Below are positions 2,173 to 57,311 of a DNA stretch of 64,000 nucleotides, in pieces. The stretch lies in NCBI GenBank assembly GCA_001632435.1, contig KV424001.1, positions 1-64,000 on the forward strand. Reading direction: 5' to 3'. This DNA is from Calocera cornea HHB12733 (taxonomy: Eukaryota > Basidiomycota > Dacrymycetes > Dacrymycetales > Dacrymycetaceae). The notes beneath the pieces were generated by a model. That model searched no databases. It worked only from the letters and a program-made list of their open reading frames with translations, and was not told the DNA's origin. How positions within the stretch are numbered: position 1 is the stretch's first letter; each line of letters opens with the position of its first letter. Position numbers and translations under genes: made by a program.

Positions 2173-3888
2173 TTTGCCGCAGACTTGGAGAGCAGAATCA
2201 GGCACCACAAGAGGGGGACACACAACCCGTAGCGATCCGAGAATTGTGGGTTCTCAGCCTTTTATACGTGCGCTCCAGAGTGTTATCAATGAACGCAATG
2301 CTCCAACCAATCTCCGTTCACGCGGGAGAACATTCACACCCAGATGCCAGCTCTGGGTGGGGTACCGTTTCAGGCACTCCGCCTGCAAGCGATAAGACAT
2401 CGGGATCCGCGGTAGTATTGTGACCCTTTGCGCCAGTGGCAAGCGATTCCATTTCTCGCAAGTCCGGACATCCACCGGGGAGACAGAGCAGCAAAGCGCC
2501 ATAGCAATTGGCGCTGCGCGTTTATGAAGTGGGCGAGGAGACTTGCCAGCGTCAAGAATAGAAACGGGATCGGTCAGCCCCAGCAAAGGCACGCGGGTCG
2601 CACGGAAGCTGTGCATGCCGACAGAAATAGCGCCGAATCCAGTTGAATCGGCAACTCGCCTTCTCCTCCATGTGTTCCATACACGTCACAAATCTACACG
2701 CATCGTTCGAGCTGGCTTGACCCGCCAATAATCCGCTTGTTAGCGAGTGGGAAACTATCCCGGTCAAATCGTCTTTCCATTCATCGAGTGTTCGTGGAAC
2801 ATCCCACCTCTAAAGCTAGCCAGCGTTACGAGTGCAGGAACGCCACGTCGCGGTCCATTTGGCCCACCAGAGTCCACGGATGGCCATTCTCCAATATTCC
2901 AGCGCATCCAACCGGAGTGGGCATATTTGTCAAGTCGTCTGCCAGTCATGGAACGCCTCAGAAGCAGGTAGAGCGGCCTGTAAGCTTTGAATAGAGTCAA
3001 ATTTTGACGGTGACCGTCCACGTGGTCCAGGAATTAATTAAAACGGATCCAATCCTTTGTCTCTGACTGCCGCGACGTCACCTCTCCAGTCGCCATGCAT
3101 GTCTGCGCCTCCTAATAATTGCACACGTTGTCGGGTTGCGAATCCTGTCCGCTACTTCGGCGCCCGACTAAAAAGGGAAGATGATCTGATGACCGTTGTG
3201 TTGCTCTAGCACAAACAAATCCGCGCCTTCGTTGCGCGGTTCGATCCCGCACAACAAGAGGACGGGTGATCTTCGCTGACGATCTGACAGACACCCTCCC
3301 GTAGGATCTCGTCGTGTCATGGGACATGGATGGCGTGAGTAGCGGTGCATTGCAACAAATACAAATGACCGGGGCCGGAATAGGAGAGGAGAGGATTGAC
3401 GATCACGAAGAGCACCCATATCCCTCAAGTGATATACAGGAGCCATGGGCCCGCAAGTGACTGTGGACGAAACCAAAATAGCTCCACCACACCGCCCGTT
3501 AGGTGGCTACGCGAGCATTGACCGACGTGAACCAACCAAAGCTTTCGACTTTGAGAGGAGAGGTCCGCTCGGATGCCGCAGAGCAAACGATTGAGCTGCG
3601 GAATGAGTAGTGATCTACTGGCATCGATCTGATGGTCTGATACTCGGCAAGTATTACAAGGCTGAAACTAGTACTGTACAAGTAACTTAACCGGCAACGG
3701 AGGGCGGGAGCCGCCCACAGCCAAACCCTGCCGGCGATGCTGCCGGGGCCGAGATGCCGGGGCCGAGGCATTCTGGGGACGCAACGCCACCGCTCTGACC
3801 AACCCAGCCAAAATTGGATCTGGACTGCCCACACTTGCTAGACGCCCGTTACGTTGCCTCGTGGTTCGCATTGTGAATCGACAATAAC
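2173..3888. other. Intergenic region between divergent OPT transporter and DPH1
   Basis: About 1.7 kb separates two divergently transcribed starts. Short open frames occur on both strands, but none has family resemblance, a plausible exon chain or a sensible start context. It should contain both promoters. A B-box-like GGTTCGATCCC lies at about 3239-3249, but no complete tRNA fold surrounds it. Confidence 0.6.
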
Positions 3889-5524
3889 ATGGCCACTGGA
3901 ACCGCAACTCAGGCACCCCCTGTAGCATCCACATCGTCGCAGCCGCCTTCGAAGCCAAAGAAGCGATTCGTGGGGCGCAGAGGCGGCGCTTCCAAGGCAT
4001 CGACCTCTGCTCCGTCAGCCGTCATCTCCTCTGGCATACCCTCATCAATACTGCAAGACCAAGCGTTGAATGCGGCGATCGCTCAACTTCCGGCCAACTA
4101 CTCGTTTGAGATACACAAGACGGTGTGGCAGATACGAAAAAATGAGGCCAAAGTGGTTGGGCTGCAGATGCCGGAAGGGCTGCTCATGTTTGCCTGTCTG
4201 ATATCGGACATAGTCGAGCGGTGCGTTCTTACACTAATGTCACTGGGTCCCGCAAGCTAAACATACGGACAGATTTACGGGCGCTCTTACTGTTATAATG
4301 GGTGACGTGACGTATGGCGCCTGCTGCATCGACGACTACACCGCGGTCGCGCTGGGCTGCGACATGCTGGTGCACTACGGGCACAGCTGCCTCGTCCCGG
4401 TCGACACCACAACGATCAAGACACTCTATGTCTTCGTCGAGATCGCTATCGACAACGCGCACCTAGCGCGTACGGTCCGGCTGAACTTCCCGGACGACCG
4501 GACCGAGTTCAGGAAGAAGCTGCGGGAGATAGAGACCGCCGAGCAGAGGGGGAAGATCACGACCGGGGACCAGATCGCCCCTGCTGTGCGGCATTTGGCG
4601 ATCACTGCGGAGGGAGAGGAGGAGCAGAGGGAGGATGTATTGCCCGTGAAGGACCGGACGCGGCTCGCGCTGGTGTCGACGATCCAGTTCGTTGCCGGGG
4701 TGCAGGCGCTGAAGGAGGACCTGACCAAGGCGTTGGAGACTCCAAAGTCGGCACCGGAAGACAACTCGCAGGCACTCGTTCAGTCAACCGAAATATCCCT
4801 GCATACCGGCGCATACGACATCACCATCCCACGATCGAAGCCGCTGTCGCCAGGAGAGATCCTCGGCTGCACCGCGCCGCTTCTGCCGGACGTCGACGCC
4901 CTCCTCTACGTCGGCGACGGCCGCTTCCACCTCGAGTCTATCATGATCGCCAACCCGTCCGTGCCGGCATTCCGATACGACCCGTACTCGAAGAAACTGA
5001 CGCGGGAGCGGTATGGGCACAGTGAGATGCGCGCGATCAGGGGAAAGGCGGTGGAAACGGCAAGGAAGAGCTTGGCGTGGGGCGAGGACGTACCCGCTGC
5101 GTCGCAGGAGGTCGACGTGCCGGAAAAGGAGCAAGTCGGCTGGGGCCTCGTGCTCGGCACACTGGGCAGGCAGGGAAATCTGCAGATGCTCAAAGCGCTC
5201 GCGCACCAGCTGTCCGTCCTCCCGCCGTCCCACCGGCCAGACATCACCCCTATCCTGCTCTCGGAGCTCTCCCCGCAGAAACTGTCCCTCTTCCCCCAGC
5301 TGTCCGCGTTCGTCCAGACGTCGTGTCCGAGGCTGAGCATCGACTGGGGCGAGGCGTTCCAGCGCCCGCTGCTGAGCCCCTATGAGTGCACCGTGGCGGT
5401 CGGGGGGATCAGGCAGTGGAGCGAGGGCGATAGGGGAGGGGAGGAGGGGTACAGGATGGACTTTTATGAGAAGGACAGCCCGTGGGCGAAGAGCAGGGCG
5501 AAGGGGAGGTTCGATGAGATCTGA
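3889..5524 (+). CDS. DPH1: Diphthamide synthesis protein Dph1
   Basis: Dph1 is one subunit of the Dph1-Dph2 radical [4Fe-4S] enzyme. It moves the 3-amino-3-carboxypropyl group of S-adenosylmethionine onto a histidine of elongation factor 2, the first step of diphthamide formation in the cytosol. Two exons, 3889-4220 and 4273-5524, join in frame across a 52-bp GT-AG intron and give 527 residues, longer than the usual 420-440 because of a low-complexity N-terminus. Family blocks visible are '[15 protein letters not shown]' (cluster Cys near residue 128), '[11 protein letters not shown]', '[13 protein letters not shown]', 'LGTLGRQGN' and '[14 protein letters not shown]' with the last cluster Cys. 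Dph2 lacks several of these, so Dph1 is preferred. Confidence 0.95.
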
Positions 5525-13472: not shown

Positions 13473-13991
13473 GGCAGGCGATAGTGAGGAGGGAGGGGAG
13501 CGCGCACGGGCACGAGGGAGTTGAGGAGGAGAGTGGGCGGGAGGGCGCGACTCACGCGTCGCGCCTTACGGGTCCCTTCAGTTGGACGCGTCGACACGCG
13601 AGTTAGATTCCGCTAGCCTAATCAGCTCCCCTCCGATCGTCATACTCTACCCTACGACCCTCAGATAGTCCTCTGCATACTACTTGCTGGCAAACTCTAC
13701 TTTTGCTGTAGCTGGCAATGGGCCGTGAGCAGCCCAGGTTTCCTACATCGCTACGAAGATCAGCTCACCTTCTTTCTGAACGACGCCGGCGGCTCTGGCG
13801 ATATGTGGAAAGGAACCCAGCACGACGTCCCCATGCAAGCGCAGCCTTCGAGATCCTTCTGATCGAGTCACATTGACTTACGTGGAAACCCGTCCATTTC
13901 AAGCGGCCTTGACTCGACCCCAGCAAAACAGGCCATATTTATAACACGCTCTACACGCACATGTATTCAGTGCCTCAAAGCAGTTGCAGTT
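13473..13991. other. Divergent promoter region MCM7 / F-box gene A
   Basis: About 520 bp holds the MCM7 5' leader (GA-rich on the plus strand, 13480-13570) and the promoter of F-box gene A, including the motif at 13865 and a TATA-like tatttataa near 13935. No gene is seen. The 13.48-13.62 kb part reappears in diverged form at about 17.34-17.46 kb. Confidence 0.7.
13865..13879 (+). promoter_or_regulatory. Shared upstream motif, F-box gene A
   Basis: GAGTCACATTGACTT, an inverted AGTCA-n3-TGACT pair resembling bZIP (AP-1/Gcn4) half-sites, lies 113 bp before the ATG. A TATA-like element sits between motif and start. Confidence 0.55.
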
Positions 13992-15339
13992 ATGTCCGAT
14001 CTCTCTGAGCAAGAGCTCATTCAGCACTTCAGTGCTATGAAAGCCGGGCGTCTTGACAGCGCATTCGAGCTTACGCCATGGCAAGACACATACATCACAG
14101 GCAGTGGCCACGATGAAGGCGATACTGTCGACGAACTGATCACGTATCTTTGTCGAACCCTAAACGCTGTCAAACTTGTAGTCGCCACGGTATGTCTAGT
14201 TATGCTTAACAGCGGTACAGACTCTGATAACTTGTCAGCCCACCACACCATCCACTTCCAGTCGGTCTATTACGCTTGCTCACCTGCGCACCATCCACGC
14301 TTTGTCGGCCGACTTCGTACAGATGCGGCACTGCTACGACGTCTCACTCCACAAGCTCCGTTGCCAAGCCTTTCTATCCAATGCGCCTGTCGCCAAGGTC
14401 ACTCGCCTCCCGGACGACATCCTGGCTATGGTGTTCGAAGCTGCCTCAGATCCTCTGAGAAAGTCCTCAGAGTATGACTCTTTCATCTGTGGTGGGGAAT
14501 CGAGGAGATATCGAAAGCGCCCGACCCAAATCACCATTGCTGCGGTATGCTCGAAGTGGAGGAACATTGCTCACAACACCCCAGCTCTCTGGGATACAAT
14601 AATCCTCAGCTCGGGTCTGGAAAAAGAGGCATCAGACGAATGGTGCAAGCGAGGAAAATCGGTACCGATGCATCTCGGTGCCGTTGTCTCCAGCTGTACC
14701 GACGAAGACCGACCTTATCAAACCGTATTCATCAACAGTGTCAGCCATCGTCTACGATCACTCAAGCTCCATGGTCACAAGCTCACTCTTTACGATCTCG
14801 CTTTGGAGTGGATCATGCCAGCACCCCGCCTCCGAGCTCTGGAAATCGTCTACGACACTTGCTACTGTAGAGATTTGACAGTACCTCCTCAGGCCAATGG
14901 AACATTCATTCGGGCCCCGAGCTCCCTCCCAGCCCTGCGAAACTTGACAATTACTCCTTTGTCCTTTCCCTGGAGGACAGCCCCGGCCTTCGATGGATGT
15001 CTTTCGCCCTCGTTGCAATACCTGTCACTCGCATTCCAAGAACACCAGCCGCTACCCGACCTAAGGTCCACCCTTCGACTACTTGCAGGCGTGCCGAACC
15101 TGAACCATCTTCGGATGCGGAGCGTCCGGTTTTGCATGGATGCCCAGGCCGAGTGTACCACTGTCCTTGGGCTCGATCCCGTCCGTCTTCCCTGTCTCCG
15201 TTATCTCTATGTCACCACATGCCAGGGCGGCGACAGATGCTTCGCATGGCTACAGCTCCTCGACGCTCCTATATTGCGGACCGTTAACATCAATAACTCT
15301 CAAGTTTGGCAGAGGGTTCTGCGTCTGAATGGAAATTAA
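13992..15339 (+). CDS. F-box domain protein, tandem paralogue A
   Basis: This is an F-box-like protein, so probably a substrate adaptor of an SCF-type ubiquitin ligase; no target is known. Exons 13992-14189 and 14239-15339 join across a 49-bp intron to give 432 residues. The N-terminal module has 'MSDLSEQELIQHFSAMK' and 'FELTPWQDTYI'. A helical lead (residues about 75-115) ends in 'LHKLRCQAF'. The F-box core 'VTRLPDDILAMVFEAASDP' follows, with 'VCSKWRNIAHNTPALWDTI'. A leucine-rich repeat-like region leads to the C-terminal signature 'CFAWLQLLDAPILRTVNIN'. This is subtype I of the array (A, C, D, F). It is the first gene of the tandem block and is divergent from MCM7. Confidence 0.88.
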
Positions 15340-15782
15340 AGGCACGGTACGCCACGAGATTCCTGTTGTATACGGGTGTGCCAACATGTATTTTGCGTAG
15401 GCTGCGTAGTAGCTCGGGAAGGGATGTGTTGAACGATGAGGTTCTCACATTGATCAGGCGCGATCGATGAAAGGTCAAAATGGTTTCAGATGTGTTCGTA
15501 GGGGAATAGTGGGCTCCTTACACTATCCAAATCATGCAACGTTCGGTATGTGTACAATGCAACTGCTGTTTGGCAGCAAGCTCAGTTTAAACGAAGCCCG
15601 GTTTCAAGGCGTAGAACCCTCTATTGTCCTGCTTACGCAAGTCAACCCCGGCTCTGGCTGAGTCACTCTGAGTTATACCGGATGCTCCAGGAATACACCT
15701 GACTCGAACACCGTCACAATGCCGGAATTGCATATAACTCGAGCCAACACTTGTCATTCATTACACATGCGGTAGTGACAAC
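15340..15782. other. Spacer between F-box genes A and B
   Basis: The 443-bp spacer carries the promoter of gene B: motif at 15660 and TATA-like catataac near 15731. No other gene is supported. Confidence 0.6.
15660..15674 (+). promoter_or_regulatory. Shared upstream motif, F-box gene B
   Basis: GAGTCACTCTGAGTT lies 109 bp before the ATG, at the same spacing as in the other paralogues, with two changes relative to the genes A and C version. Confidence 0.45.
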
Positions 15783-17173
15783 ATGTCCACACTCTCCGAG
15801 CAAGAGCTTGCCACGCACTTCAGGTCTATGAAAGAGGGAGGTCTCGATGGTCCCCTTGACCTTGCACCGTGGCAAACCTCGTATTCATCGCCTCGTGATG
15901 AGTGTACACCATGCCCATCAGTGGATATTCTGGCCGATCACCTTTCTCACACCATCTCCACATTGGAAGCCATCCGCAACACAGTAAGCTGCCTAACACG
16001 GCACCCCTGAATCACCGTTTGACGACTGTCCAGACCCCAGTAACGGCAGGAGTGTTCCCCCGGCTAAGTGCAATCAGCAACGCATCAACCGAGTTTACGC
16101 AAGTAGAGCATGACTACCAGACTGCGCTGCACCAGCTCCGAAGTCATGCATTCCTTGCTACCGCACCGACAGCTCCGGTCACACGACTCCCCGAGCATGT
16201 CCTCGCGTTGATTTTCTCATACGTCAAAAGTGCCCTGAGGCATACCTCGTCCTCCCTCTATGACATCGACGACTACGATACAGATGAGCGTCCCTCGCAG
16301 ATCTCCTGTGCTTCTGTCTGCCAACGATGGCGCAACGTTGCCCATCAGGAGCCATCACTATGGAACCACATAATCTATGATGCCGGCCTCTCAAGTGATG
16401 CGCTCAGCACCTGGCTCAGAAGGAGCGGAAGTTCTGCGTCAGTGGATCTCACCTTGGTTGGACTTCCTGGCAATTGGCGATCATGGGAGCAACAACTTCG
16501 GTTCCTCAACAACATTTCTGGGCGACTTCGTACCGTTGTACTTGTAGGACATTGCCGGTTCCTACACTATATGGCTCAGCACTGGCTCACACCAGCATCA
16601 GGCCTAAAGGAGCTGGGATTTGAACATACGAAAGGGCGATGCAGGTACAAGACTCCAACGAAGGGAACATACGCTCGCGCACCAACGTCCGATGCCTTTC
16701 CTGTTCTGAGGGAGTTCAAGGTATCGAACGCGCACCCACCGTTGAGTCTGCTTTCAGCCGTGGATTATGTCCAAATTTCGAACAACCTCAGAGAGCTCAC
16801 GCTCGAATTCAGACGGACATCATCAGACTCGGACGCCATTCTCAAGCTTCTCCGCTCTTGCCCAAACTTGCATGTCCTCGTGATGAGCGATGTTTGTTTC
16901 TGCACCAAGGTCGACGTACAAGACACTGCAGACTCCATCGGTTCTCCAATCACCCTGGCAATTTTGAAGAAGCTTAGCGTCAGCCAGTCGCATGCGGTGT
17001 GCTGGAGGTGGTTGAATTTGCTCGACGTGCCTTCTCTTCAGCGAGTGGTGATGTACCCGAGAGGCTGGGAGCAGTGGCTCGCCCAGTGGAGACCAGCACC
17101 ACCAGCCCCAATACCGCAACCTCCAAAGCCAGTCCACCCACTGTCATTGATGGGGTTTACGAGGCGCAGGTAG
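15783..17173 (+). CDS. F-box domain protein, tandem paralogue B
   Basis: Two exons, 15783-15983 and 16034-17173, separated by a 50-bp intron at the same place as in gene A, give 446 residues. The N-terminal module reads 'LSEQELATHFRSMKEG' then 'PLDLAPWQTSY'. The F-box part is 'VTRLPEHVLALIFSYV' and 'VCQRWRNVAHQEPSLWNHI'. A leucine-rich region ends in 'WLNLLDVPSLQRVVM' and a Pro-rich tail. The C-terminal block (basic and Trp-rich, 'GWEQWLAQWRP') marks subtype II of the array (B, E, G), distinct from the 'TVNIN' ending of subtype I. A substrate-adaptor role is inferred from the F-box only. Confidence 0.87.
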
Positions 17174-17760
17174 AGTCATGCTGGATTGGAACCGCCGTTT
17201 TGCTATGGGGTAGAGAAATAGTGTAATTTGCAAACTGCGTCGCATTACTATGATAAAGATACATACAACGTACTTGGGGCTCTCCCGCTTGCAGGTATAT
17301 CAACATCATCATCATCCAAGTTCCATGTCAATCCAGTCGCTGTCCGACAGGAGGGAGGGAAGGGCAGACGGGCACGTGGGAGTTGAGGGAGCAGAGTGGG
17401 CGAGAGGCTCGTACAACGTGCGACGCGTGACTCATTCCGTTAGTCAAGTATTTCCCCTTCTCACCTTTACTTGAACTTAGACCACTCAGACCGAAATGCA
17501 ACTGTCTGCTTAACAAACTTGATGGCTGCTTCTAGAAACATATAATATGTCTCCGGTTTTGACTAACGCTCTCCGAAGCAATCTGCCGGCTATTGCCACG
17601 ACACGCGGACAGACATGCCGCCCTTGAACCCTTCGAGATCTTTCCGCCCGAGTCACATTGACTTGGCCAAGCATGATTCAGCCAATGCGGATGACAGCGC
17701 TTCTTGAGTATAATAGGCTGCAACTGCCTATAGGAACCGCATCTTGAGCGATAATCAGCC
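17174..17760. other. Spacer B-C with relic of the MCM7 5' end and gene C promoter
   Basis: Positions about 17300-17460 resemble, by eye, the MCM7 exon-1 stretch around 13325-13370 followed by the MCM7 leader 13485-13620. Examples are 'acgggcac', 'gggagttgagg' and 'agagtgggcg' in the same order. The rest resembles the gene A promoter, including GAGTCACATTGACTT at 17650-17664 and a TATA-like gtataata near 17708. No intact gene is present. Confidence 0.55.
17650..17664 (+). promoter_or_regulatory. Shared upstream motif, F-box gene C
   Basis: GAGTCACATTGACTT is identical to the gene A motif and lies 97 bp before the gene C ATG. It supports gene C having been a functional member before the retrotransposon insertion. 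Confidence 0.55.
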
Positions 17761-18093
17761 ATGCCGAACCTCACTGAGCAAGATCTTGTCCGCCATTACA
17801 ATCGCATGAAAGCCGGGTCTGTCGATGGTCCACTCGAGTTGGCACCGTGGCAAACCTCATACATGCCGGGTGTATCACACAATGCGAAGGATGGGCTGGA
17901 CAAGCTGGCTATCGGAATTTCTCGTGCTCTCCACAAGGTCAAGGACGTAACTGCAAAGGTGAACGCTCTCGTACAAAGAACATACATAAGCAAAGATCTG
18001 ACTGCTGTTAGGATAGCGTACCGTCGCTCAACCCTAAGTCAAACCCTCTCCCTCTTCTGCGTACCATCCATGGACTCTCTCCCCGGATCGCCG
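17761..18093 (+). pseudogene. F-box paralogue C, 5' part (split by retrotransposon)
   Basis: Exon 1 is 17761-17958 (66 codons, the same length as in genes A and F), starting 'MPNLTEQDLVRHYNRMK' and holding 'LELAPWQTSY'. A 53-bp intron ends at 18011. Exon 2 opens at 18012 and aligns with gene A through 'LRTIHGLSPRIA', where the LTR begins at 18094. The frame resumes in the same register after the duplicated GCCG on the far side, at 29129. Nothing else in this half looks broken, so the insertion is the only visible lesion. Read-through into the LTR would add unrelated residues and stop. Confidence 0.85.
18090..18093. repeat. Target-site duplication GCCG (left)
   Basis: GCCG immediately before the left LTR matches GCCG at 29125-29128 immediately after the right LTR, a 4-bp target duplication expected of LTR-element integration. 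Confidence 0.75.
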
Positions 18094-18481
18094 TGTACCT
18101 ATACCCTAATATCGGGCTGTAGGCTGCGAGACGCTGGGAGGGGGACTAATCGATAGCAGTGTCGAATCGCTTGTAGTAGATAGTGATAATATATCGATAT
18201 CGAATCAATTCGAGGCCTCGTGCGGCCGATGAGTGAACGGAAGGAGCGACGCGGTCGAAAAGGAAAGAGATCGCACTGGGGCCCGAAGGCATATGGAAGA
18301 GTTTCTATACTGCGGGCTGTGCCCGATCGGCATACCGACGGCCCGAATCGAAGACAGCGCGGGCCAGCGTGCGCCGAACCCGACCGTATCGACGATTCGA
18401 AGCGTCGATTGCTTCGATACGAAAGAAAAGAAAAGAATACATTGCTATCGATACTGCCTCTACTACCTTTCTAGCAGCACA
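18094..18481 (-). repeat. 3' LTR
   Basis: 388 bp, TG...CA. It differs from the other LTR at nine positions (18168, 18207, 18234, 18285, 18291, 18360, 18381, 18390, 18464), all transitions, eight of them in CpG dinucleotides. Confidence 0.95.
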
Positions 18482-19026
18482 TCCGCGGGGGACTCATCAA
18501 ATGACTGTCCTCAGTCATCTAGAGCGATGCCGAGGGGTCGTTCTTCACGGTCTCGGTCGGTTCGGTCGTCGAATCGGTCTTCTGGCCGTTGCGCGTAACG
18601 GCGGATCCGATCGAAACGGCGCCGATGGCGTTGCGAGCGCCAGCGGACGGGAAGGCCATCGACCGAAGGTTGGTCGGGTCGGTCGTTCGATAGTCGCTCA
18701 GCGCAAGGTGGCCGAGGACAAGGGATGCACATATGAGCGGGAGCGCGCGAGGCAGGGGCGTACGGCGTGCCGCGTTCGCAGGCGTAACGGTGGGCGTAGG
18801 CGTAGGCGTAAGCATACGCGCGAGAGCGAGCGCGTCGGGCGACGAATCGGTGGACAAATTCTCCATTTCGCGAGCGAGGTATACGGGCGAGGGAGCGAGA
18901 CGGTGACGGTCGAGGGAGAAGATCGAATGCCCCTTTCGAGGCTGCGCCCGAAGGTCCCTATGGGGTTTCGATGAATAGGGGTCCGATGATTCGATGACCC
19001 GGACCCCTATTCGCGTCCCTAATCCC

Positions 19027-19110
19027 TCATCGATTTGTAATCGGCCATTTATCGAATCGTCGATACGCTCATCGATTTGTAATCGACTTTTCGTCGAATC
19101 ATCGATACAC
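19027..19110. repeat. Two tandem copies of a 42-bp repeat
   Basis: 19027-19068 and 19069-19110 both start TCATCGATTTGTAATCG and end CGATACRC. They differ at a handful of positions and lie about 370 bp upstream of the cargo TATA box. Confidence 0.85.
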
Positions 19111-19482
19111 TTGTCGAGTTGCTTTTTGTACCGAATATTCCCAAGTGTCGCGTACCATTCTTCTGGCTTTTACGACGTCGATTTGTCCTCAGTCGTCGAT
19201 TCTCCGTACTTCTCTGGCCGCGGGGGACTCTGTATTCGTTGCCCGAATCCAAACTGGCCTCTTCTGGGAACTGTTGCATGCCTCGGTTCGATTCGATTCG
19301 GCTTCGAAACGAAAACAATTCTCGGTCAGCTGAGTCCCTTGACGCGTCGCGTCGCGTTGTCCCTATGCCGTGGGGGACTATGACTGTGCCTATCCCTAGG
19401 CACGACGCGCGATGGAAGACTTGGGAATAGGGGTCGCATCGCTTCGGAATGGCTAACGGGGGCATTTCGAGGGCGCGTCCGA

Positions 19483-19490
19483 TATAAATA
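19483..19490 (+). promoter_or_regulatory. TATA box of the antisense cargo gene
   Basis: TATAAATA lies 117 bp before the cargo ATG at 19607, on the plus strand and so opposite to gag-pol. Distance and strand fit a dedicated promoter independent of the LTRs. Confidence 0.6.
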
Positions 19491-19606
19491 GGAGGCGCTC
19501 ACCGTTTCGCTGCGTTGTGTCTTGCTCCCGAACGTCCATCGCTCTGGGCGGTTTCTCGACTTGACTGCTCTGCTGGGTTACTCTGTGACTGGCTGTACTG
19601 GCGGAA

Positions 19607-22470
19607 ATGGCGACTGGCGGCAGACGACTGACCGGAGCGGCGCTTCGCGCGTCGGAAAGGAAGGCGGACCGTCTGGCGAAGGAGGCGAAGGCTGCCCGTG
19701 GAGCGACTGAAGCGGCGGACGGCGACGCCGCGTCGCAGACGGGCTCGGCGGTTGGCCCGAAGGATAGCGATGAGGAGATTGACGCGTCTGCGGAGAAGGA
19801 CGTCGTCGACGAAGATCACGACCCCGACTGGGAAGACGCGGCGGACAAGACCACGTCGGTAAGTGTCGATGGGCGATGTGCATGTCGCGCGTGTGCGCTG
19901 ATCGGGACGCGCAGCCTGGCGGTATCGACGAAGACGTGGTCGAAGACGCCGATGGTGAGGAGCTCAAGCAGCCGAGCACGCCGCCGAAGGCTACGAAGTT
20001 GAGCGACGCGACGTGGAGGAAGAAAGGCGGTCATACGCCCAAGCGCAAGGAACGCGTCGATGTCGATGTCGACGGCGACGATGGCCCGGACGACGGTGCT
20101 GAAGGCGACCGTGCCAGCGTCGACACGCCTGGCGACGGCGTGCAGATTGTGGAGCAGGAGGCGAAGGTCGACGCGGCGGAGTCCGTTCTGGTAGGTCGCA
20201 CCCGCTGGGTGATGTGCGCGCACTAGCTGAGCTCCATCAGGCGCCCAGCCCAGAGCTGGGGAACATCGAAACGGCGCCGTCGAAGGCTTCGTCGAAGGTT
20301 GTGGTAAGTTCGCCGGCTTTGCTTCTGGAGCACAGCTAACATCAATCACCAGTCCACTGCGAGTAGTACGACGCTGGCGACAACACCGAAACGGGTTCGA
20401 ATCGTCGAGGAGGAGGTAACGGACGTGGAGGAATTGAAAGCGGTACGTGGTCGAATCCCCTAGCATCGTCAATTCTGACACTCTTGCAGCATTACGACAC
20501 GAAGGCGCTAGACCGCTTGCTGGCCACGATGCCCGAAGAGGAGGACGAGCTCGTTGAATGGGCGAACGCACCCGGCAACATCAAGCCGTTCCAAGTAAGT
20601 CGTTGCCGTTTGATTCGATTCGACGGTACTGACTTCTTTGCAGGTTGCTCTGGTGAAGGTGGTGCGGCGCGATCCCGTCGCCTTTCTCTTCGTCCCCATG
20701 TCCGTCGCTCGATACATGGGATTCTGGTTCCGCGAGAAATGGAAGGAAGTGAATGTGAGTGAGGTTGAATTTCTATTGACTGTTTTCTGACATGACTGCA
20801 GCGCGTCGGGCCACTTTGCGACGAGTTGGACCTTCCCTTGGGGGCGCCGCTGCGTTCCCCTTTCGAAGAGTGGGTGCCTGGATCGGGCGAGCGCACCGAG
20901 GATGCCATTGAGGACGACCTCATGCCTTACTCGCGGTGGGCGTTGCTCAAGCTGGACATCGCTGCGAGGAACCGAAAGCCGCTGCGGACGGCTGAAGATA
21001 TGGAGGTAGGTGTCTCGATATCCTCTCAATCGTCGATTTGTCGTATTAACGATTACCAGGACAACGAGCTCGATTTGAAGCAAATCAAGCGGGAGTGTGC
21101 GGCCTTCGAAGCGCTCGACAAACAGGGCCAGAAGAAGTGGTGCGAGGAGCATACGCCCGAGGCGAGGAAGGCTGCTCTGAAAGCCTTGTCGGTGAAGAAA
21201 TCGGGTGTGCGTGGCCCGTCCGATTCGAAGGCGTCCGACGCTTCGAAGGCGTCGAATCGTTCGGCTGCTTCCCGCGTCGAAAAGACGGTCGATACCGTTT
21301 CGACCGCACTGAAGGCCCTCTTGTCGTCTGTGGAGCCGCCTACGAAGTCGACTGCGATGAAGTCGACTGCCTCGAAATCGACTGCTGGGGCTCGAGACTC
21401 CTCGAAGGGCGCTCCCGAGGCGTTGGGGTCGAAAGCCCCTCCTAAGCCGACGGCGGCTAAGAAGTCCGCTGGACCGGTAAGAACCTCATTTCGATTCGAC
21501 GTCGTTGACTAACATCTGCTGTAGAATGACCCCGATCAATTCGTGGGTGCTCCCGTCGACGCCGACGTGTACACCAAGGGCTACACCGCAAATCACCGGG
21601 CGAAGTACGAGGCGTTCGTCCAGGGGCAGACGTTGTTCAGGCCCGGTCGTCACAATGACCCTCCCGTACGTATCGATTTCCGTTTCAGCGTCGATTCTAC
21701 GTTTCGACTCACATGGTCGTAGTGTGGCATGTGCACCAACAAGAAGCACGTATGCACCGGTGGCTGGAACCACGCCAACGAATCGACGGAAGGTTTCGAA
21801 AAGCCCGATGGTGTCGCCTGCCTCTCCTGCCGTGTTCGTGGCCTCGAATGCAGCTTCGCGAGCAAGAACAAGGGCCGTCCCAAAGCGGACAAGAGGGCGC
21901 GCGACGAGACCAATCAGGAGCCCAAACCGCCTGCGAAGAAGACGAAGACGAAGCTGGTGGAGGACCCCGAAGCCCGTAGGGTCGTCACCGCCAGTGTCGG
22001 CAGCGGGTATCAGGGTACGACGGTCCCGTATCGGACTTACGAGCTGCCCGAGCACGCTTGGGCGACAGAGGAAAGTCCTCTGTTCATCGCATATTCGTCG
22101 GACCTGGGTGAGTATCCGCGCGTTTCGTCGAATCAAGGCTAATCGAGCTCCAGAAACCGTTCTGCACCGCCTGAGTGAAGAATTCGCTCGCATGCGCGTC
22201 ATGAACGCCATTGCGGAAGACAACCTGAAGGTCATCCGCCAGGCCGTTACCGCCAGCGACGATCCGAAGTCCGAACAGATTCGCATCCTCGTGACTCCCG
22301 TCACCGGTAAGGAGTTGCAGCCGAAGAGGCGCTATCGGGTCGTGACCGGCGCCATTTACGAGGCCGCGTCCGAGGTCATCGAAATCGACGATGATGACGA
22401 CGACGACGATGAGGTGTTGGCGTTGAAAGCCAAATCAAAGGGCAAGGGGAAGCAGAGGGCGAGGGATTAG
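19607..22470 (+). CDS. Antisense cargo protein with Zn2Cys6-like cysteine cluster, unknown function
   Basis: I do not recognise this protein. Eleven exons (19607-19858, 19915-20190, 20241-20303, 20353-20442, 20490-20594, 20644-20754, 20802-21005, 21060-21476, 21525-21665, 21723-22107, 22154-22470) join at GT-AG sites with no stop, giving 786 residues. In order: a charged N-terminus, a globular part (about 230-370) with 'PMSVARYMGFWFREKWKEVN', a Ser/Lys-rich linker with 'KSTAMKSTASKSTAG', then six cysteines at about 554, 557, 564, 586, 589 and 596 spaced C-X2-C-X6-C-X21-C-X2-C-X6-C. Basic nuclear-signal-like runs ('KNKGRPKADKRARD', 'KPPAKKTKTK') follow, then an acidic patch of eight Asp and a basic end. 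The half-cluster spacing equals fungal Zn2Cys6 regulators, but the central loop is longer. A nuclear DNA- or chromatin-binding role is inferred. Confidence 0.8.
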
Positions 22471-22698
22471 TGCTGGAAAAGGGGGGGGGGGGAAACAATC
22501 TGTTATATGCAGCGGTAATGTAGCATCTCGAGATACTAGGAGCCAGAATGGGGGGCTCGATTCGATGTACGATAGTTAGTGCGGTGGTAAGAAATCGAGT
22601 GAAAATCCAAAGAGCGTGGGATCGAATCGACCGTTTCGAAAGGCTTGCTATGTTCTGTCTTCGGGTATGGGTATAGGAAGACTAGGCGAGAATCATCC
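22471..22698. other. Gap between converging cargo gene and pol, with G12 run
   Basis: 228 bp lie between the plus-strand cargo stop and the minus-strand pol stop. It contains AAAA followed by twelve G (22481-22492), purine-rich on the plus strand and so not a normal polypurine tract for this element's sense strand. It presumably holds both 3' ends. Confidence 0.5.
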
Positions 22699-25600
22699 TC
22701 ATGCCTCGATTCGACGCTCCGGTCCTTCGATAGATTCGACGGTTTCCGGCTCCGCTGTGTCTATGTCCTCTTCTTCGTCTTCGGCGATATCTGCTCCGAT
22801 CCCAGTGTTATCGAGGCCTTCGATGTTGCTTTCGACGACTTCCTCTACCATTGCCATGCCTTGGTCGATTCCGTCCGCGTAATCGGCATTATCGAGGTTT
22901 CGAAGTACCGTTTCGACCGCTCCCGAAAGGTCTTTCCGGCTTAGGTATGGAATCACTCGAAACTTCGCGATAGTATGTCTGAACACCGACCCGTCTAAAT
23001 CGGCCAATGTGTACGCGCCGCCCGAGTGTCTCTTGACCACTATGTATGGTCCAAGATACCGATGTTGCGTCTTGTCTCGCAGGGGCCCGTCGTGTCTACT
23101 GTTCCTCATGAGTACTAGATCCCCCGTGTCGAATCGATGATCGAATATCAGGTTCTCAAACTTCTCCCTGAAGCGTTCAGCGTTTCGAAACCTCGATCGC
23201 GAAATGCGCTCTTCGATATCATTCAGGTCTTCAGTCCGCTTCAGAAGTTGCCTGGCTCGATACGATATCAATTCCTCTCTCGATAGGAGCTGATTCGGCG
23301 GCGGTACAAGCCACGTTGCTTCGAGTATGTCCATAGGCAGTAATGGGTGTATACCGTGAACCATGTAGAACGGACTCATACCCGTGGCGCTGTGAATGGC
23401 TATCCTCTGAGCCCAGAAAACCGACGGTATGACTTCAGGCCAGTGCGAAACGTCTCCTGGAATACTTCGTACTATCGATTCGCGGACGCTTCGATGGCTC
23501 TGCTCTACCAGACCGTTGGCCCTCGAATTGTAGCTGGAGATTCAAATATGCGATAGGTGATACTTCTTCTGGAGATTCGATACCGCACTAACGTACGGAG
23601 TTCCGTTGTCGGTAACGATTTCTCCTAAGGCGCCCCATCGACATAGTACATTCTTGTACAGGAACTCTTCGATGACTTCCGCCGTTTCCTTTCGACATAT
23701 CATGTACTCTGGCCAGTGCGTCAACGAGCACCTGGCTTGTAGTACGAATCGCATGCCTCGATGACGTCCTTTTGAAAACGGCATAAGCATCGTATCGCAG
23801 TAAGCCTTGAAGAATAGTGGCTGCGGCAGTTGCACTGTGGGCGGAATGACTACGTGTCGCATCTGCTGTTTCTGACATTCCTCGCATGTTCGCAGGTACC
23901 ATTTGGCATCCTCGCCCATGTTCGGCCAGAAGAACCTTAATCGAAGATGCTCGTACGCGGTTCGGTATCCTCGATGCCCGATACCGTCGTGAACGTTTCG
24001 AAGTACGTTTAGACGCTTTTCGAACTCGATATACAAACGGTGCTCTCCATTCGGATCCCTTCGATAAAGGTCGTCCTCTCCCTGTAAGAAGTACTTCGAG
24101 CTCTTTTCGAGGAACGATTTCCATTGTGCATCCGTTAGTCCTTTCGGTCGTCGAAAGTTCCTAAGGTATTGTCGAATCGCCAATATCGCCTCGTCTGCTT
24201 GTCGCGTGGATTCGAGCCTCGGCAACGTCTCCTCCGGGGGGGCCGCAAAAATTGGAACTGGCGGCTTTGACGACTGTTCCAAGAAGAAAGTGTGGGACAA
24301 CCCTAAGGAGTCGTCATCGTCTGCTTCGGGAAATCAAGCATCGATTTCAGCTTGGTTAACCGGGGGCCGCCTCGAGAGTCCGTCGGGTGCCGTGTGCTTA
24401 TCAGCCGGAACGTGTCGAATTACGCCGTTGAAGAGGTGAATCCAGTGGATCCAGCGGTTAAGGGCGACGGTGGGTGCGATATCCGGGTGGTTCAGCATTC
24501 CCTGAATGGACTTGGCATCGACCTCGATATCGAACTCTGGAACTCCCACGAGCCAGATTCGAAACGCTTTTAACGCCTGATACACGCCGTACAATTCAAG
24601 CTTGACCTGGGAGTACCGGCTTTCGACGTCATTCCAGCCTATCGATCCGAATCGAGAGGGGCGACGTTTGCCGTTGGCGTCGTTCTGGTATAGGACGAAC
24701 CCGACGCCGATAGTCGAAGAGTCGACGGCTAGGGTGATTCGACGGCCGCTCTTGTAATCGATCGGTGTGAGGACGTTGTTACGCTCTGCTTCGAGCGCGG
24801 ATTGCTGGAGCTGACGCACCGCTTGCATTTCGATTTTGCCGAATTCGAAAGGCACGTCCTTTCGCTTCAACCTTTCAAGAGGTCTCGCTTTACGGGCGAA
24901 GTCCTTGATGAAGATGCGCATTATACCAACCGTACCGAGGAATGCTCGAACCTCTGTAAGGTTCTCACAGGGCAGTTTCCATTCGACAATTTTCTGGACT
25001 TTCGAAGGATCTGGCCCACAGCCGTCGTAACCGCATCGATACCCGAGGAGGATGATGTCGGGCACGCATAAGAGAGCTTTCGGGCCTGAAAAGGTAGCCC
25101 CGGCGTGCTGAGCGCGCTGAATGATTCGATGCATATTGCCTAGGTGTTCGAAAACGAATCGACGAATGCCTGGGTTATCAGGAATCGTTTCAAAACCACC
25201 GTCTGTTTCGTATCGGGTCTTGGGTCCTTTCACGCCGATGTCATCGATGAAGGGAGTCGTGAGATGTGGAATCTCGTGTTGGAATAGGAAATTCACATTG
25301 TCTTGCATAACTCCTGGCATGTTGTGGGCACCCATCGGGGCCACGGTGTAACAAAGCGGTCCGATCGGGGACTGAAACGAGGTATAGTCGCGAGACTCGG
25401 GATGCAGGGGGTGTTGCTCGAATCCCCGATAGAAATCGAGCAAGCCATAGCAGCCTTGCGCGCCGTAGTCTTCGAGAATGTGTTCGGTAAGGGGAGGTAC
25501 AGTGCTACTTCGAATCATCACGCTATTGAGCGGACGGGCGTCAATAACCAGGCGGAGCTCGCCGCTTTTCTTGGTTACGGCGAACACGCGAGATCGATAC

Positions 25601-26421
25601 GACGACTGTGAAGGCTCATACGTGCCAGCGGCGATCTTCGAACGAAGCATATCAATGACCTGGTCTTGTAGCGCTGGTGGAATCGGTATGTTTTTCTCCT
25701 GCCACGGAACATGGGGCACTGTTGGAAATATTACCGGATCGAAATACGCCGGGTCGAAACGACCAATCTCGGACTCCGTCCAAGCGAATGCCATCTCGTG
25801 CTCTTTCATTACCCAAGCCGCTAGTTTGACCTCTTCCAGTGTAAGAAATTGGTCTTTGTCGAGGTATAGTGCGTCGAATCGTTCCTGAGTGAGCCGCTTT
25901 CCCGGCATAAACGAAGGTGGGCGGGTTGGTAATCGTTTCATGTGCGCAAGTGGATCCAACGGGAATCGACGGCCGATTTTGAGGCTCTCAGGGTGTGCTG
26001 CCGCGACAGGCTTAACGCGGTCTTCGACTTTCTTGTATTTACGGACGGCCAGGACGTTGGTATACGGATTGTACTGATAGTGAGAATTTACAATGTCGAC
26101 GTCGAATTCGTCGATTCGGGGTATCGAAGGGTTCAGCGATTCGTGAAGAAAGACGTCTCTCCAAGGTGATCTCAGGTCATGGACTATCGAAAATCCGCTC
26201 CTTTCGGTATCGATTCCTTGGTCGTCACGACGTACTCTTTCGAGGTATTCGGGCACGTCAGGGTGAGTTCCTGGTAGCCATCGACGTAGTCCTTCGCCGT
26301 GCAGCTGAACAATGTAAGGAACGGCCGGCCTAGGAGTAACCCGACAGGCAGCCTTTCGGCAATGTGCACTTGGAACAATCCTGAGACCCGTCCGACGGAT
26401 ATTCTCATGTTCTTTACACAC
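22699..26421 (-). pseudogene. Retrotransposon pol (RT-RNase H-integrase), broken by two TGA
   Basis: One minus-strand frame from 26421 to 22699 is interrupted only by TGA at 24334-24336 and 23542-23544. Reverse transcriptase motifs include 'SRVFAVTKKSGELRLVIDAR' and the active site 'FIDDIGVKG' (Phe-Ile-Asp-Asp where YxDD is usual). RNase H shows 'LAVDSSTIGVGFVLYQ' and 'IEVDAKSIQGML'. Integrase has the HHCC zinc part ('HDGIGHRGY', 'CEECQ'), core Asp residues in 'AYCDTM' and 'IVTDNGTPY', and a GPY/F-type block 'HRYLGPYIVVKRHSGGAY'. An acidic tail without a chromodomain ends it. Both stops are explained by C to T in TCGA (Arg codon CGA). The frame is -1 relative to gag-protease with an overlap at 26184-26421, so a -1 frameshift is likely for expression; no classical slippery heptamer was spotted. 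Confidence 0.9.
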
Positions 26422-28736
26422 CCCATGGTGCTACTGACGCCGCCGTTGGCAGTCCTCATGCCGATTTTCTCCGCTGGGCTGAGCAACGTGTTGGTCTTTT
26501 TCCAGAGCGAGTGGTGCATAACGATTAGCGAGCACCCCGAATCGATACATCCGAGTATCGGAACGTTTCCGTCCCCGACGGTGACTTCCACGTCGCGTAG
26601 GCCAACCATCTCCGGAGCCACAGTGGAGGCGCCCGAGTCGTCAACGATACTGTCGATTCGACTATGCAACACCAAGCCAACCGCGATACCTGCGTGGCCT
26701 TCCCCTTGTCTGCGCATGTACGATTCGGCGGCCGTTTCCTCATCGTCCTCGATAGCTACCATTGCGTTCCAGACCGGCGTCGTACGAGCAACCTTTCGAG
26801 GCTGGGTCTGTTGCGATAAGTATTTGCGTACGTGCGGGGACATGGCCATAACCTCTGCAAGAGATAGTGATATGGAACTCTTCATGAGATTCGAGAGAAC
26901 CGTGTCGACGAGGGCTTCACTTTCGGCTGCTGAACGGTACTGCATACGTGGGGCTGCCTCTTTCGATTCGAACCGCTCAGTATTCTTGCTAGGGCCAGCA
27001 TCATTGCCGTTGTGAGTCAAAGATACCGGTTCGTCATCGAGGCTTTCGAATTCGACATGTTTCGACTTCCCCTTTCGAATCGGAGGATCAGGCTTGTCGT
27101 TGTCCGCACGGCCCGTAGCCTTCGCCAGTCTAGTTTCGAGGACCGATATGACGGATTGAAGCTCGTCTACTTCGCTCGTTTCGGTGTGGCCTAGGAGTCG
27201 CACATCGGCTTCTCGAAAGGGTAGGACGTCACTGTCGAATCGATCGTCGACTGAGAATGCCTGTATAATATTGACAGGTGTAGGGTTTCGATTCCCATTT
27301 CGATTTCGAGCCTCCACGTCGGCCGTCGTCTGGTTTGGGTTGCGCTGATGCCAAGAGAGGACCTTGTCCTTCATCCATAGACCTGGATACCTTGGTGGCT
27401 CGTCGCCATTGGGTAGCGCAATTCGATGTCGTGCGTTTCGAATGACCAGTCCTTTCTGAATATGTTCTTCTAGGTCCCGACAGTCCTTCGCCCAGTGCTC
27501 TACCGCTCCGCACCAGAGGCAGTGATTCGTGCCGCTATCGCCGCCTCGATTCCTGTCGCCTCGTTGGCCTCCTTGATTGTATCCTTGCTGAGGTTGCGCA
27601 TCGCGCTCCCGAAACTGACCTTGAGTGTTCTCATACTGCGGCGCTGGATGATCGAGTTTCGATTCGATACGGGATAGAAGAGCCAACATGCGCTCCTGTA
27701 TCGACCAGTCCGTTTCGACCTTTATCGAAGTGGAGGGCTCGACTTTGGTCGACGCTGTTTCGGACTCAACTTTCGCCGTAGGAATCGATGTTCCTAGCCT
27801 TAACGGCACAAAATCGACGCTTGCAGGGGTGTTGGTCAGAAGGAACTCGGCGGCCTCAGTAACATGCTCAATGTCGTACGGGTCACCCGGTAGAACATCA
27901 GGTTGCTTCATCATCAATCGAGTCCGTAGTTTCTCTTGGAAATCGAAGTGGAAGCCTCGCATGTACTGCTGGGCTCGTTCCATTGTCAATATCTTGCCCT
28001 TTTCCTCGAGCCATGTCGATATCATGAGGAATTGTCAATAGTACTCGCCGAATTGGGCCCGGCTCTCCATGGGGATCGCTGCGCTCTTACTGACTATCCT
28101 TTCGAGGTCGGTCTTCGTATACCGCCTAGTATCGTTGGTCGACCCGGGATACAGCCTGAGAACTGCTTTTCGAAATGCCGCGAAATCGGTCGGCACGGCC
28201 TTTGATTCAGGTAGCGACTCCCAGACTTGTGCCACATCGATATCCACGTACTTCAGACTGTAGTTGACCCACTTCTCTGGCGACACCTCATGCCCCTCAC
28301 ATAGCTGCTGCACGTCCTCTAAAAATCGAACAATGTGCTCTGGTCGGGCCGACTCCAAGACTGGGGCGTTTCGACTCGACCTCAACGGCATCATCGATTC
28401 CAGCATGTTGGGTGATATGGGTCGAAACGAAGCGTCGACGTCGGAGGGTACGGGTTGGTCAAGGAGGCGGTCAGAGGTTGTCGAGCTCGGAGGAGAGGTT
28501 AGCGTCGATGTCGACGGGTTCGGCGAGTTTTCTGAAACCAGGGGAGGCGGATGCGGATCCGATGCCTGGCGATGCGCTATCCGACGCGGTTGATATATCG
28601 GTATCTGGCTCCGAAAGGGTCTGCCGCTGCGGAGCGTCACGGTTGCAGATGGGTCTCGGGTCGCTAGACACCCCGACGAATTTTCGCTCGCCCGCTGTAG
28701 TAACCCCAACCAGAAATCCCTCGCGTTGGGCTCCAA
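26184..28736 (-). pseudogene. Retrotransposon gag-protease, broken by one TGA
   Basis: One minus-strand frame is open from the primer site at 28736 to TAG at 26184-26186, except for TGA at 28035-28037, explained as CGA to TGA. The first in-frame ATG is at 28406, codon 111 of the open frame, just before the capsid-like part ('RPEHIVRFLEDVQQLC', 'FRKAVLRLYPG'). Downstream are the zinc knuckle 'CLWCGAVEHWAKDC' (C-X2-C-X4-H-X4-C) and a retropepsin-like protease with the catalytic 'LGCIDSGCS'. Capsid, nucleocapsid and protease share one frame, as in many Ty3 elements. Without suppression of the TGA only an amino-terminal Gag fragment would be made. Confidence 0.87.
28718..28735 (-). other. Primer-binding site for tRNA-Lys(CTT)
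   Basis: One base inside the 5' LTR, the minus strand reads TGGAGCCCAACGCGAGGG. This is the exact 18-nt complement of the 3' end plus CCA of the tRNA-Lys(CTT) encoded at 57230-57311. The tRNA-Lys copy at 60490-60573 matches 17 of 18. Confidence 0.92.
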
Positions 28737-29124
28737 TGTACCTATACCCTAATATCGGGCTGTAGGCTGCGAGACGCTGGGAGGGGGACTAATCGATAGC
28801 AGTGTCGAATTGCTTGTAGTAGATAGTGATAATATATCGATATCGAATCGATTCGAGGCCTCGTGCGGCCGATGAGCGAACGGAAGGAGCGACGCGGTCG
28901 AAAAGGAAAGAGATCGCACTGGGGCCCAAAGGCGTATGGAAGAGTTTCTATACTGCGGGCTGTGCCCGATCGGCATACCGACGGCCCGAATCGAAGACAG
29001 CGTGGGCCAGCGTGCGCCGAACCTGACCGTATTGACGATTCGAAGCGTCGATTGCTTCGATACGAAAGAAAAGAAAAGAATACATTGCTATCGATACTGC
29101 CTCTACCACCTTTCTAGCAGCACA
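28737..29124 (-). repeat. 5' LTR
   Basis: 388 bp, TG...CA, next to the primer-binding site, so the transcription start for the minus-strand gag-pol RNA should lie here. It is 97.7% identical to the copy at 18094-18481. Confidence 0.95.
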
Positions 29125-29128
29125 GCCG
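29125..29128. repeat. Target-site duplication GCCG (right)
   Basis: GCCG directly follows the right LTR and matches the left flank. It belongs to the reading frame of the disrupted F-box gene C. Confidence 0.75.
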
Positions 29129-30195
29129 AGATATGCAACCATCACAAAACTGCGTTGCACAAACTTTGTTGTCAGGCATTCGTGTCGAACGCTCCTGTCG
29201 CCGAGATCACTCGCTTACCCGACGACATCCTGGCTATGGTGTTCGAGGCAGCTGCTGAACCATTGGGAGGGATTCACTGGCGTGAAGATGGCCAATTTTC
29301 AAGAAAGCGAAGATGTCCTGCCCAAATTGCAATCGCCGCGGTCTGCTGCCGCTGGAGAACAATCGCCCATCTCACTCCAGCAATGTGGAGTGTCGTAGAA
29401 TTGCATGGTGTTCGACAGCTGGCAGCAGCAGCAGAGTGGATCTCACGCGGAAAGTCAATGCCACTGGACCTGGTTGTTCACTTCCCTCGTTGCCAGGAGG
29501 AGGCTATATCGCTTCTGGTTGCACTCATCAACCGCGTCAGCCACCGACTGCGAACATTGGAGATATCCGGTCACAATGGGTCGCTCTATCGCGTAGCCAC
29601 GGACTGGATCGAACCAGCGCCCATGCTGCAGACGCTTTCAACAAGCTACGACGTCTATGAAGACGAAGATGGGCAGGGGTGGTGCAATTGCGACGACGAT
29701 CCTACGGATGAGATACGAACGACCTGCATTCGCCCACCATCATCCTTACCCGCCCTTCGCTCGCTATGTATATCCGTGTACGGGGACGAGTGGTCGACCG
29801 TCCCGGAACTCCACGGTTGTGTTTCGTCAAGCATACAGGACCTCACGCTGAGCTTTACGGGCTGGGGCCTGGCGGATTATGCATCCGTTATGCGACTCCT
29901 CGAATGTACGCCGAATTTGACCAGTCTGCGCTTCAAATTCGCGTACGGCAGTTCATGCGAGCACGAAAATGATACAGCGGAATGTGACGGTGTCGTAGGG
30001 CTTAAACCCGCGCATCTGCCTCACCTGCGATCGCTCCACGTGACGAACAGCCAGAGCAGGCCTTGCTTCCAGTGGTTGCGCCTCCTCGATACGCCACATC
30101 TGCGGACATGCAATATCAATAACTCTCAAGCCTGGCAGAAGGAGCTGCCACAGATCACCCGCTTGGGTTCGGGTTACAGCGCGTCTGGATCATGA
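29129..30195 (+). pseudogene. F-box paralogue C, 3' part (split by retrotransposon)
   Basis: Continuation of exon 2 of gene C. It opens 'ICNHHKTALHKLCCQAF', then the F-box core 'ITRLPDDILAMVFEAAAEP' and 'VCCRWRTIAHLTPAMWSVV', a leucine-rich region and the subtype I ending 'CFQWLRLLDTPHLRTCNIN'. It runs without a stop to 30193-30195. The frame is open back into the LTR, so a chimeric transcript starting in the LTR could be translated from there, but no natural start is seen. With the 5' part it would make a normal-length member of the family. Confidence 0.85.
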
Positions 30196-57229: not shown

Positions 57230-57311
57230 GCCCGGCTGGCGCAATCGGATAGCGCGTCAGACTCTTACTGAGGGTATCTGAAGGTTGCGAGTTCGACCCT
57301 CGCGTTGGGCT
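57230..57311 (+). tRNA. tRNA-Lys (anticodon CTT) with short intron
   Basis: Cloverleaf: acceptor GCCCGGC paired with GTTGGGC, D-arm GGCGCAATCGGATAGCGC-like, anticodon stem TCAGA/TCTGA with anticodon CTT at 57264-57266, T-arm GCGAG-TTCGACC-CTCGC. An 8-nt intron (57268-57275) sits after position 37, the standard place for nuclear tRNA introns. Its 3' end with CCA is exactly complementary to the retrotransposon primer site at 28718-28735. It ends about 250 bp before the CENP-C gene on the same strand. Confidence 0.95.

Follow-up and report, generated by a model that had tools for sequence, protein, structure and literature searches.

We analysed a 64,000-nucleotide stretch (hereafter the window) from contig 88 (C88) of the 32.1-Mb genome of the jelly fungus Calocera cornea HHB12733. 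A Ty3/Gypsy retrotransposon of 11,031 bp (positions 18094-29124, sense on the minus strand) carries a complete, intron-rich gene on the strand opposite to its gag-pol. The gene lies at 19607-22470 on the plus strand, between pol and the 3' long terminal repeat (LTR), and is defined by its spliced frame, coding score, genome-project models, splice sites and ratio of nonsynonymous to synonymous substitutions (dN/dS). It behaves as an accessory gene that is resident in a Ty3/Gypsy clade of this fungus and kept by selection. Judged from its sequence, it may encode a nuclear DNA-binding regulator that recognises the copies of its own family, perhaps against silencing, a reading that we advance with somewhat less than even confidence. 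All comparisons were made within this one genome, in which family copy counts are lower bounds and many repeats stop at contig breaks.

The gene has eleven exons and ten introns. Exons 1 to 6 span 19607-19858, 19915-20190, 20241-20303, 20353-20442, 20490-20594 and 20644-20754, and exons 7 to 11 span 20802-21005, 21060-21476, 21525-21665, 21723-22107 and 22154-22470. When joined they form 786 codons and a stop, and all ten introns, 46-57 nt long, run from GT to AG. A preliminary description of this DNA had proposed these eleven exons, the 786-codon frame and the antisense position between pol and the 3' LTR, all of which are correct to the base. Two alternative acceptors of intron 2 also preserve the frame (789 or 781 codons), and the acceptor used here is the one chosen in that description. 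A splice-aware coding scorer recovers the identical eleven-exon model on the plus strand of the window with a score of 318.8, while the same region scores 4.0 on the minus strand and 13.0 when the sequence is reversed. Training of the scorer took in the window gene and families 1 and 2, described below, so that only family 3 tests it independently. At the contigs of three other copies, the genome project modelled the same protein (CALCODRAFT_483673, 786 aa; CALCODRAFT_482262, partial; and CALCODRAFT_479376) and labelled it merely as hypothetical. Transcription would run towards pol from an ATG about 1.1 kb inward of the 3' LTR. The TATA box claimed previously, TATAAATA, is present at 19483-19490 on the plus strand, about 120 bp ahead of the ATG, and is kept in 7/7 copies of the window's element family (family 1).

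A whole-genome DNA search for family 1 gave eight matches: the window copy, long copies on contigs C20, C59, C36 and C5, two copies cut by a contig start (C63 and C201) and a 336-bp fragment on C21. The 5' end of the gene is present in seven of these, each with the family 3' LTR 1.11-1.13 kb from the ATG. Across the seven copies, every intron with both ends present is GT..AG (62/62), and splice dinucleotides vary in none of 40 alignment columns as against 145 of 413 columns in intron interiors (Fisher P = 1.3e-7). Third codon positions diverge more than first and second positions in 21/21 pairs of copies, and introns diverge more than third positions in 19 of them, the exceptions being C20-C5 and C36-C5. 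The preliminary description had suggested estimating dN/dS among copies, and the values fall between 0.12 and 0.28 in all 21 pairs.

A long antisense frame could in principle be an artefact of a GC-rich, overlapping open reading frame (ORF) on the gag-pol strand, for example an env-like gene, and stop-free stretches of 325 and 281 codons do exist on the minus strand in the window. Control comparisons in four pairs of copies argue against this. Three stop-free sense-strand stretches have dN/dS of 0.65-1.53 and contain extra stops in some copies. In the remaining five frames of the spliced columns dN/dS is 0.91-2.69, with a single exception, a sense-strand frame that has dN/dS of 0.25-0.40 yet 14 stops. 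Together with the coding scores of the two strands and the conservation of the splice sites, these values refute a sense-strand env-like ORF, and we regard the artefact as next to impossible.

Comparison of individual copies shows when selection acted. The two LTRs of a copy differ at 9/388 sites in the window, 1/389 in C20, 1/387 in C59 and 13/387 in C5. Between C20 and C59 the gene has a synonymous divergence (dS) of 0.154 and dN/dS of 0.20, with two indels, both in introns, and every splice site retained. Since the LTR pairs of these copies are almost identical, nearly all of the divergence is older than insertion, and selection thus operated across rounds of retrotransposition. Between C88 and C20, dS is 0.117 in the gene and 0.127 in pol (824 pol codons), matching values which indicate that gene and pol travelled together. 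The dN/dS in this pair is 0.24 for the gene versus 0.05 for pol, so the gene is the less constrained of the two. In two pairs with the decayed C5 copy, in which the gene frame is broken and the compared pol part has seven stops, pol dN/dS is 0.16 and 0.20. The differences between the paired LTRs of these four copies are transitions in 24/24 cases, a pattern that points to cytosine methylation or to a process like repeat-induced point mutation and that would be expected if the host methylates cytosines in such copies. The young C59 copy (C59:46300-52989) is a deletion derivative lacking most of gag-pol: element positions 536-4856, from gag to reverse transcriptase (RT), are gone and the antisense gene is whole.

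Introns in the sense direction of a retrotransposon are spliced out of the genomic RNA and hence lost in retrotransposition. From this established biology, antisense placement would leave introns unspliced in the sense genomic RNA and intact through reverse transcription. The earlier proposal of a passenger gene that rides antisense, with introns that survive retrotransposition, agrees with the 62 intact introns and with selection across rounds.

The preliminary description had named, as its key test, a second element with a gene in the same place, and such genes are present in two further Ty3 families. The nearest other families in a pol search are represented by C21 (family 2, 61% identity) and by C127 (48-58%) and C251 (42-56%), both of family 3. 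In C21 the antisense gene lies downstream of pol (locus L067, 3475-5767) and has 8 exons, 7 introns and 631 aa; a codon-scored model has one extra intron and a later start and gives 605 aa. The ends of this element are marked by a 95-bp exact repeat (L067 and L075), interrupted by an assembly gap. Comparison with a second family-2 copy, C247, shows 47/387 differing sites in introns and 46/1,533 in exons, and 7/7 introns are GT..AG. Two family-2 members were annotated by the genome project (CALCODRAFT_478889 and CALCODRAFT_489118), and sequence matches place relatives on ten further contigs (E 3.4e-10 or better). The C127 gene encodes 563 aa with a coding score of 172.8, compared with 2.8 on the opposite strand, and is flanked by pol on one side and on the other by a 3' LTR that the contig end truncates (299-bp LTR match, 98%). 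In C251 the coding scorer yields just a 257-aa frame.

The three families share an exon that encodes six cysteines. In the window gene the cluster has the spacing C-X2-C-X6-C-X21-C-X2-C-X6-C at residues 554-596, as previously described, and occupies 21723-21851 on the plus strand, at the very start of exon 10. The preceding phase-0 intron (21666-21722, plus strand) ends exactly ahead of the first cysteine codon, and an intron occupies the same place in families 2 and 3, where the spacings are C-X2-C-X6-C-X8-C-X2-C-X6-C and C-X2-C-X15-C-X13-C-X2-C-X7-C, respectively. In 3/3 families the first cysteine codon opens this exon and a phase-1 intron closes it; in family 1 that intron lies farther from the cysteines than in families 2 and 3. 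Families 1 and 2 also share a phase-0 intron at the same alignment place in a helical core (after residues 262 and 74, respectively), and a second phase-0 intron lies within three residues (after 299 and 117). We consider the genes of families 2 and 3 to be probable relatives of the family-1 gene. For families 1 and 2, homology is argued from position, orientation, intron places and weak similarity combined, and for family 3 from just position, orientation and the cysteine exon.

These results bear on whether the gene is a host gene captured antisense, drifting as a passenger with no role in the element. Such a capture would account for the short, host-like introns, the TATA promoter and the broken frame of C5. 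Against it, all 61 protein matches to family 1 lie on the eight contigs with element copies, with no separate host gene among them; selection spans rounds of transposition, and a gene occupies the same place in three families. A one-off capture is ruled out by the family-1 copies and the same-place genes of the other two families. The captured-passenger account is contradicted for family 1, and we regard it as very improbable.

Each family also contains its own short DNA word at many dispersed sites. In family 1 this is GATTCGA, or TCGAATC on the other strand, with 39 sites in the element (18094-29124) versus 4 in the remaining 52.8 kb of the window. Five shuffles of the 11.0 kb gave maxima of 11-12, the host rate would give 0.8, and the commonest 7-mer of 11-kb host windows occurs 8-19 times. 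The family-1 sites lie scattered in either orientation (18 and 21), gag-pol included, and are most concentrated in the antisense gene's introns and in the LTRs. Family 2 has ATAACGC 34 times in 10.3 kb, and family 3 has TCCGGAA 28 times in 11.2 kb; beyond the element, the remaining 52.8 kb of the window contain one and four sites of these words, respectively. Overlap-free counts in families 1, 2 and 3 are 39, 0 and 1 for GATTCGA, 2, 63 and 1 for TAACGC, and 1, 10 and 37 for TCCGGA. Motif density in the introns versus the exons of the antisense gene is 9.9 versus 1.3 per kb in family 1 and 37.8 versus 2.1 per kb in family 2. Motif sites in non-coding sequence are kept between copies slightly better than other 7-mers (0.69-0.80 versus 0.59-0.67, in 5/5 pairs with 13-15 sites each). 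Among 18 Ty3 loci outside the three families (2.3-4.3 kb each), 16 have no word in excess of the maximum of ten shuffles; two of the 16 (L058 and L064) share a weak word, AATCTCGA, present five and six times. Canonical CGG-type sites of Zn2Cys6 regulators are unsupported as the words, CCGG occurring only in TCCGGA of family 3.

On this basis we propose the following mechanism. The gene's own TATA promoter would drive an antisense transcript that, once spliced, would encode a charged protein, for the most part disordered, that has a helical core and a cluster of six cysteines; the cluster probably binds zinc and is followed by basic runs. The protein would enter the nucleus and bind the short word scattered through its own family, which may be GATTCGA in family 1, TAACGC in family 2 and TCCGGA in family 3. 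Bound words would mark the copies of the family and allow escape from silencing, or transcription. The splicing, zinc binding, nuclear site, DNA binding, target motif and anti-silencing or transcriptional effect are all steps that we infer, and the DNA-binding regulator proposed in the preliminary description is a reasonable guess.

The working analogy for this scheme, which does not imply membership, is the VANC proteins of the Arabidopsis VANDAL transposons. As described in passages of PMC5735166, VANC proteins lift methylation; VANC21 binds a nine-base motif that is dense in its own VANDAL family, chiefly in non-coding sequence, introns among it, and VANC is far less conserved than the transposase. 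The Calocera gene is similarly element-encoded and evolves faster than the core enzyme, with a dense, short, family-specific motif that in families 1 and 2 extends into its own introns. The two systems differ in that VANDALs are DNA transposons, and a Pfam scan of six antisense-gene proteins found no match to the VANC domains DUF1985 or DUF287. The VANC motifs in the same passages are tandem repeats in one orientation, unlike the Calocera words, which are scattered in both orientations and also occur in gag-pol. VANC function has been demonstrated in Arabidopsis, and a corresponding function of the Calocera gene is a proposal. By extension, fungal Ty3 elements might practise sequence-specific self-recognition, a convergent counterpart of VANC in which protein and private word co-evolve within each family and protect it from host methylation or silencing; this is speculative, and we think it more likely wrong than right.

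Several results weigh against a DNA-binding regulator of this kind. Fungal Zn2Cys6 regulators follow the pattern C-X2-C-X6-C-X5-12-C-X2-C-X6-8-C. Families 1 and 2 have two similar C-X2-C-X6-C halves, and the family-2 loop of 8 lies inside the usual range; the family-1 loop of 21 and the family-3 spacing do not fit, and the Calocera cluster is in the later part of the protein. In the same six proteins, the Zn2Cys6 profile PF00172 scores 7.6 and 8.6 bits in two and is unlisted for the other four, against a Pfam gathering cut-off of 21 bits, so the Zn2Cys6-like membership suggested in the preliminary description is doubtful. A PDB sequence search returned nothing for family 1 and six irrelevant, weak matches for family 2 (best E 0.81), and AlphaFold models of two proteins are too poor for use (mean pLDDT, the predicted local distance difference test score, of 36.3 and 35.5). 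Similarity among the families is slight. BLASTP of family 1 versus family 2 with low complexity filtered gives two collinear stretches with E of 0.016 and 0.030 (9e-8 unfiltered), hhalign gives a probability of 6.3%, and family 3 has no significant protein similarity to the other families (best E 0.17).

The words themselves provide further points of this kind. Because each was picked for being the most frequent word of its family, weight attaches solely to how far it exceeds shuffles and how rare it is elsewhere. The antisense-gene introns of family 3 contain no motif site, and the most frequent 8-mer at the pol locus of that family (seven occurrences) does no better than the maximum among 20 host windows of 4.2 kb (seven). 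Two of the 18 other Ty3 loci have their own dispersed 8-mer, AGCGAAAT in C1 (10 times) and CCTGAACC in C153 (21 times). Contrary to prediction, the 2.6 kb that follow pol at the C1 locus yielded no antisense gene, so dispersed motifs do not require one. The better keeping of non-coding motif sites is a trend, not proof, and the four motif sites in the compared pol part show no such advantage (3, 1 and 2 of 4 kept in three pairs, versus 0.72-0.81).

The protein might instead act on element RNA or particles, in packaging, in export or as a Gag-like chaperone, with the cluster as an RNA-binding or structural zinc site and the words unrelated to it. Such a role would suit a protein that is charged, has a cysteine cluster as well as basic runs, and is modelled at low confidence and perhaps disordered; the sub-threshold Zn2Cys6 scores and the presence of dispersed words in two of 18 other Ty3 loci would fit it too. 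Against this, the words are family-specific and, in families 1 and 2, reach their highest density within the antisense gene's introns, and a promoter of its own would make the product independent of the packaged RNA. We regard an RNA or particle role as unlikely, if a real contender. Self-limitation, in which the protein is a repressor or copy-number control or the antisense transcript restrains the element through pairing with genomic RNA, seems rather improbable. DNA binding would be as compatible with repression as with activation, and double-stranded RNA could arise from antisense transcription across the element's 3' part; passages of PMC7264820, which also call for a look at antisense and spliced transcripts, discuss such a role for plant antisense ORFs. 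The low dN/dS in all 21 pairs implies that the protein matters and not the transcript alone, which argues against limitation by the transcript.

Antisense genes between pol and the 3' LTR are already known in kind. The preliminary description knew of no described fungal counterpart, which was wrong: brtn, of Boty-like elements in Botrytis cinerea, is reportedly that of Zhao et al. 2011. Passages of PMC7264820, PMC8365987, PMC4227169 and PMC5987419 place brtn antisense between pol and the 3' LTR of a fungal LTR element, as in Calocera; the host is an ascomycete, and the likeness seen in these passages is one of place and orientation. Protein database searches, which required shared 5-residue words and so cannot prove absence from other fungi, returned only Calocera cornea proteins (3, 3 and 5 matches, with 7,996, 7,990 and 7,994 candidates scored), and no Botrytis protein was among the matches of these limited-reach searches. 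A pattern search of viral contigs gave 152 matches with no relative among them. In plants, the Grande, RIRE2 and Retand elements carry antisense genes in this position, and 97% of Retand clusters have antisense ORFs with a TRP28 domain and suspected DNA binding, according to passages of PMC7264820 and PMC11963269 (the latter for Retand). The plant genes in these passages resemble the Calocera gene in place, orientation, presence in most copies and a suspected nuclear or DNA-binding regulator, and the Grande gene also in having its own promoter. Beyond their hosts, they differ in the TRP28 domain (PF04195), which has no match in the six Calocera proteins by Pfam scan. The Calocera gene has ten introns, and the word intron is absent from the main text of PMC7264820 and PMC11963269, whose passages also mention no dispersed family motif. 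No described many-intron antisense gene in a fungal LTR element was found in the literature searched. As far as these searches show, the new features are the occurrence in a basidiomycete, the conservation of ten introns, a six-cysteine exon at a position common to three families, and family-private words.

The carrier is assigned to Ty3/Gypsy by an LTR pair, a target duplication, a tRNA primer site and the domain order protease-RT-RNase H-integrase. Its 5' LTR (28737-29124, minus strand) is 388 bp long with TG..CA ends, and its 3' LTR (18094-18481, minus strand), also 388 bp, shows nine transitions relative to it. The target-site duplication GCCG flanks the element at 18090-18093 and 29125-29128, and 4-bp duplications, read by eye, are present in 3/3 copies with both flanks. 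By eye, an 18-nt primer binding site (28718-28735, minus strand) is complementary to the CCA-tailed 3' end of a tRNA gene at 57230-57311. ARAGORN calls this tRNA gene Ser with anticodon act; by our own reading it is perhaps Lys with a short intron. The primer word of the element also occurs at sites without a family LTR on C17, C109, C232, C251 and C298. The gag-pol region (22699-28034, minus strand) encodes an aspartic protease, RT, RNase H and an H2C2 integrase. On the minus strand, the protease, RNase H and H2C2 integrase pass their Pfam cut-offs, and RT and rve fall below theirs. The window copy of gag-pol is interrupted, spanning more than one frame with in-frame stops, and the C20 copy has an open frame of 1,595 codons. 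Ahead of the element, 102-nt repeats (68-71%) lie at 13991-14092, 15782-15883 and 17760-17861, and a 111-nt repeat (77%) flanks it on both sides (14350-14460 and 29158-29268). Given these repeats, the element may have inserted inside a tandem gene cluster.

Overall, the Calocera gene shows that selection can preserve a gene with many introns in a retroelement lineage through repeated retrotransposition while the gene is kept antisense. Since the genome project labels these proteins as hypothetical, similar genes may be overlooked in other fungi. In fungi, the three families offer a testable example of proteins that are encoded by an element and matched to DNA words private to it. Should the words prove to be binding sites, the element's self-recognition and counter-silencing would become testable with a single recombinant protein.

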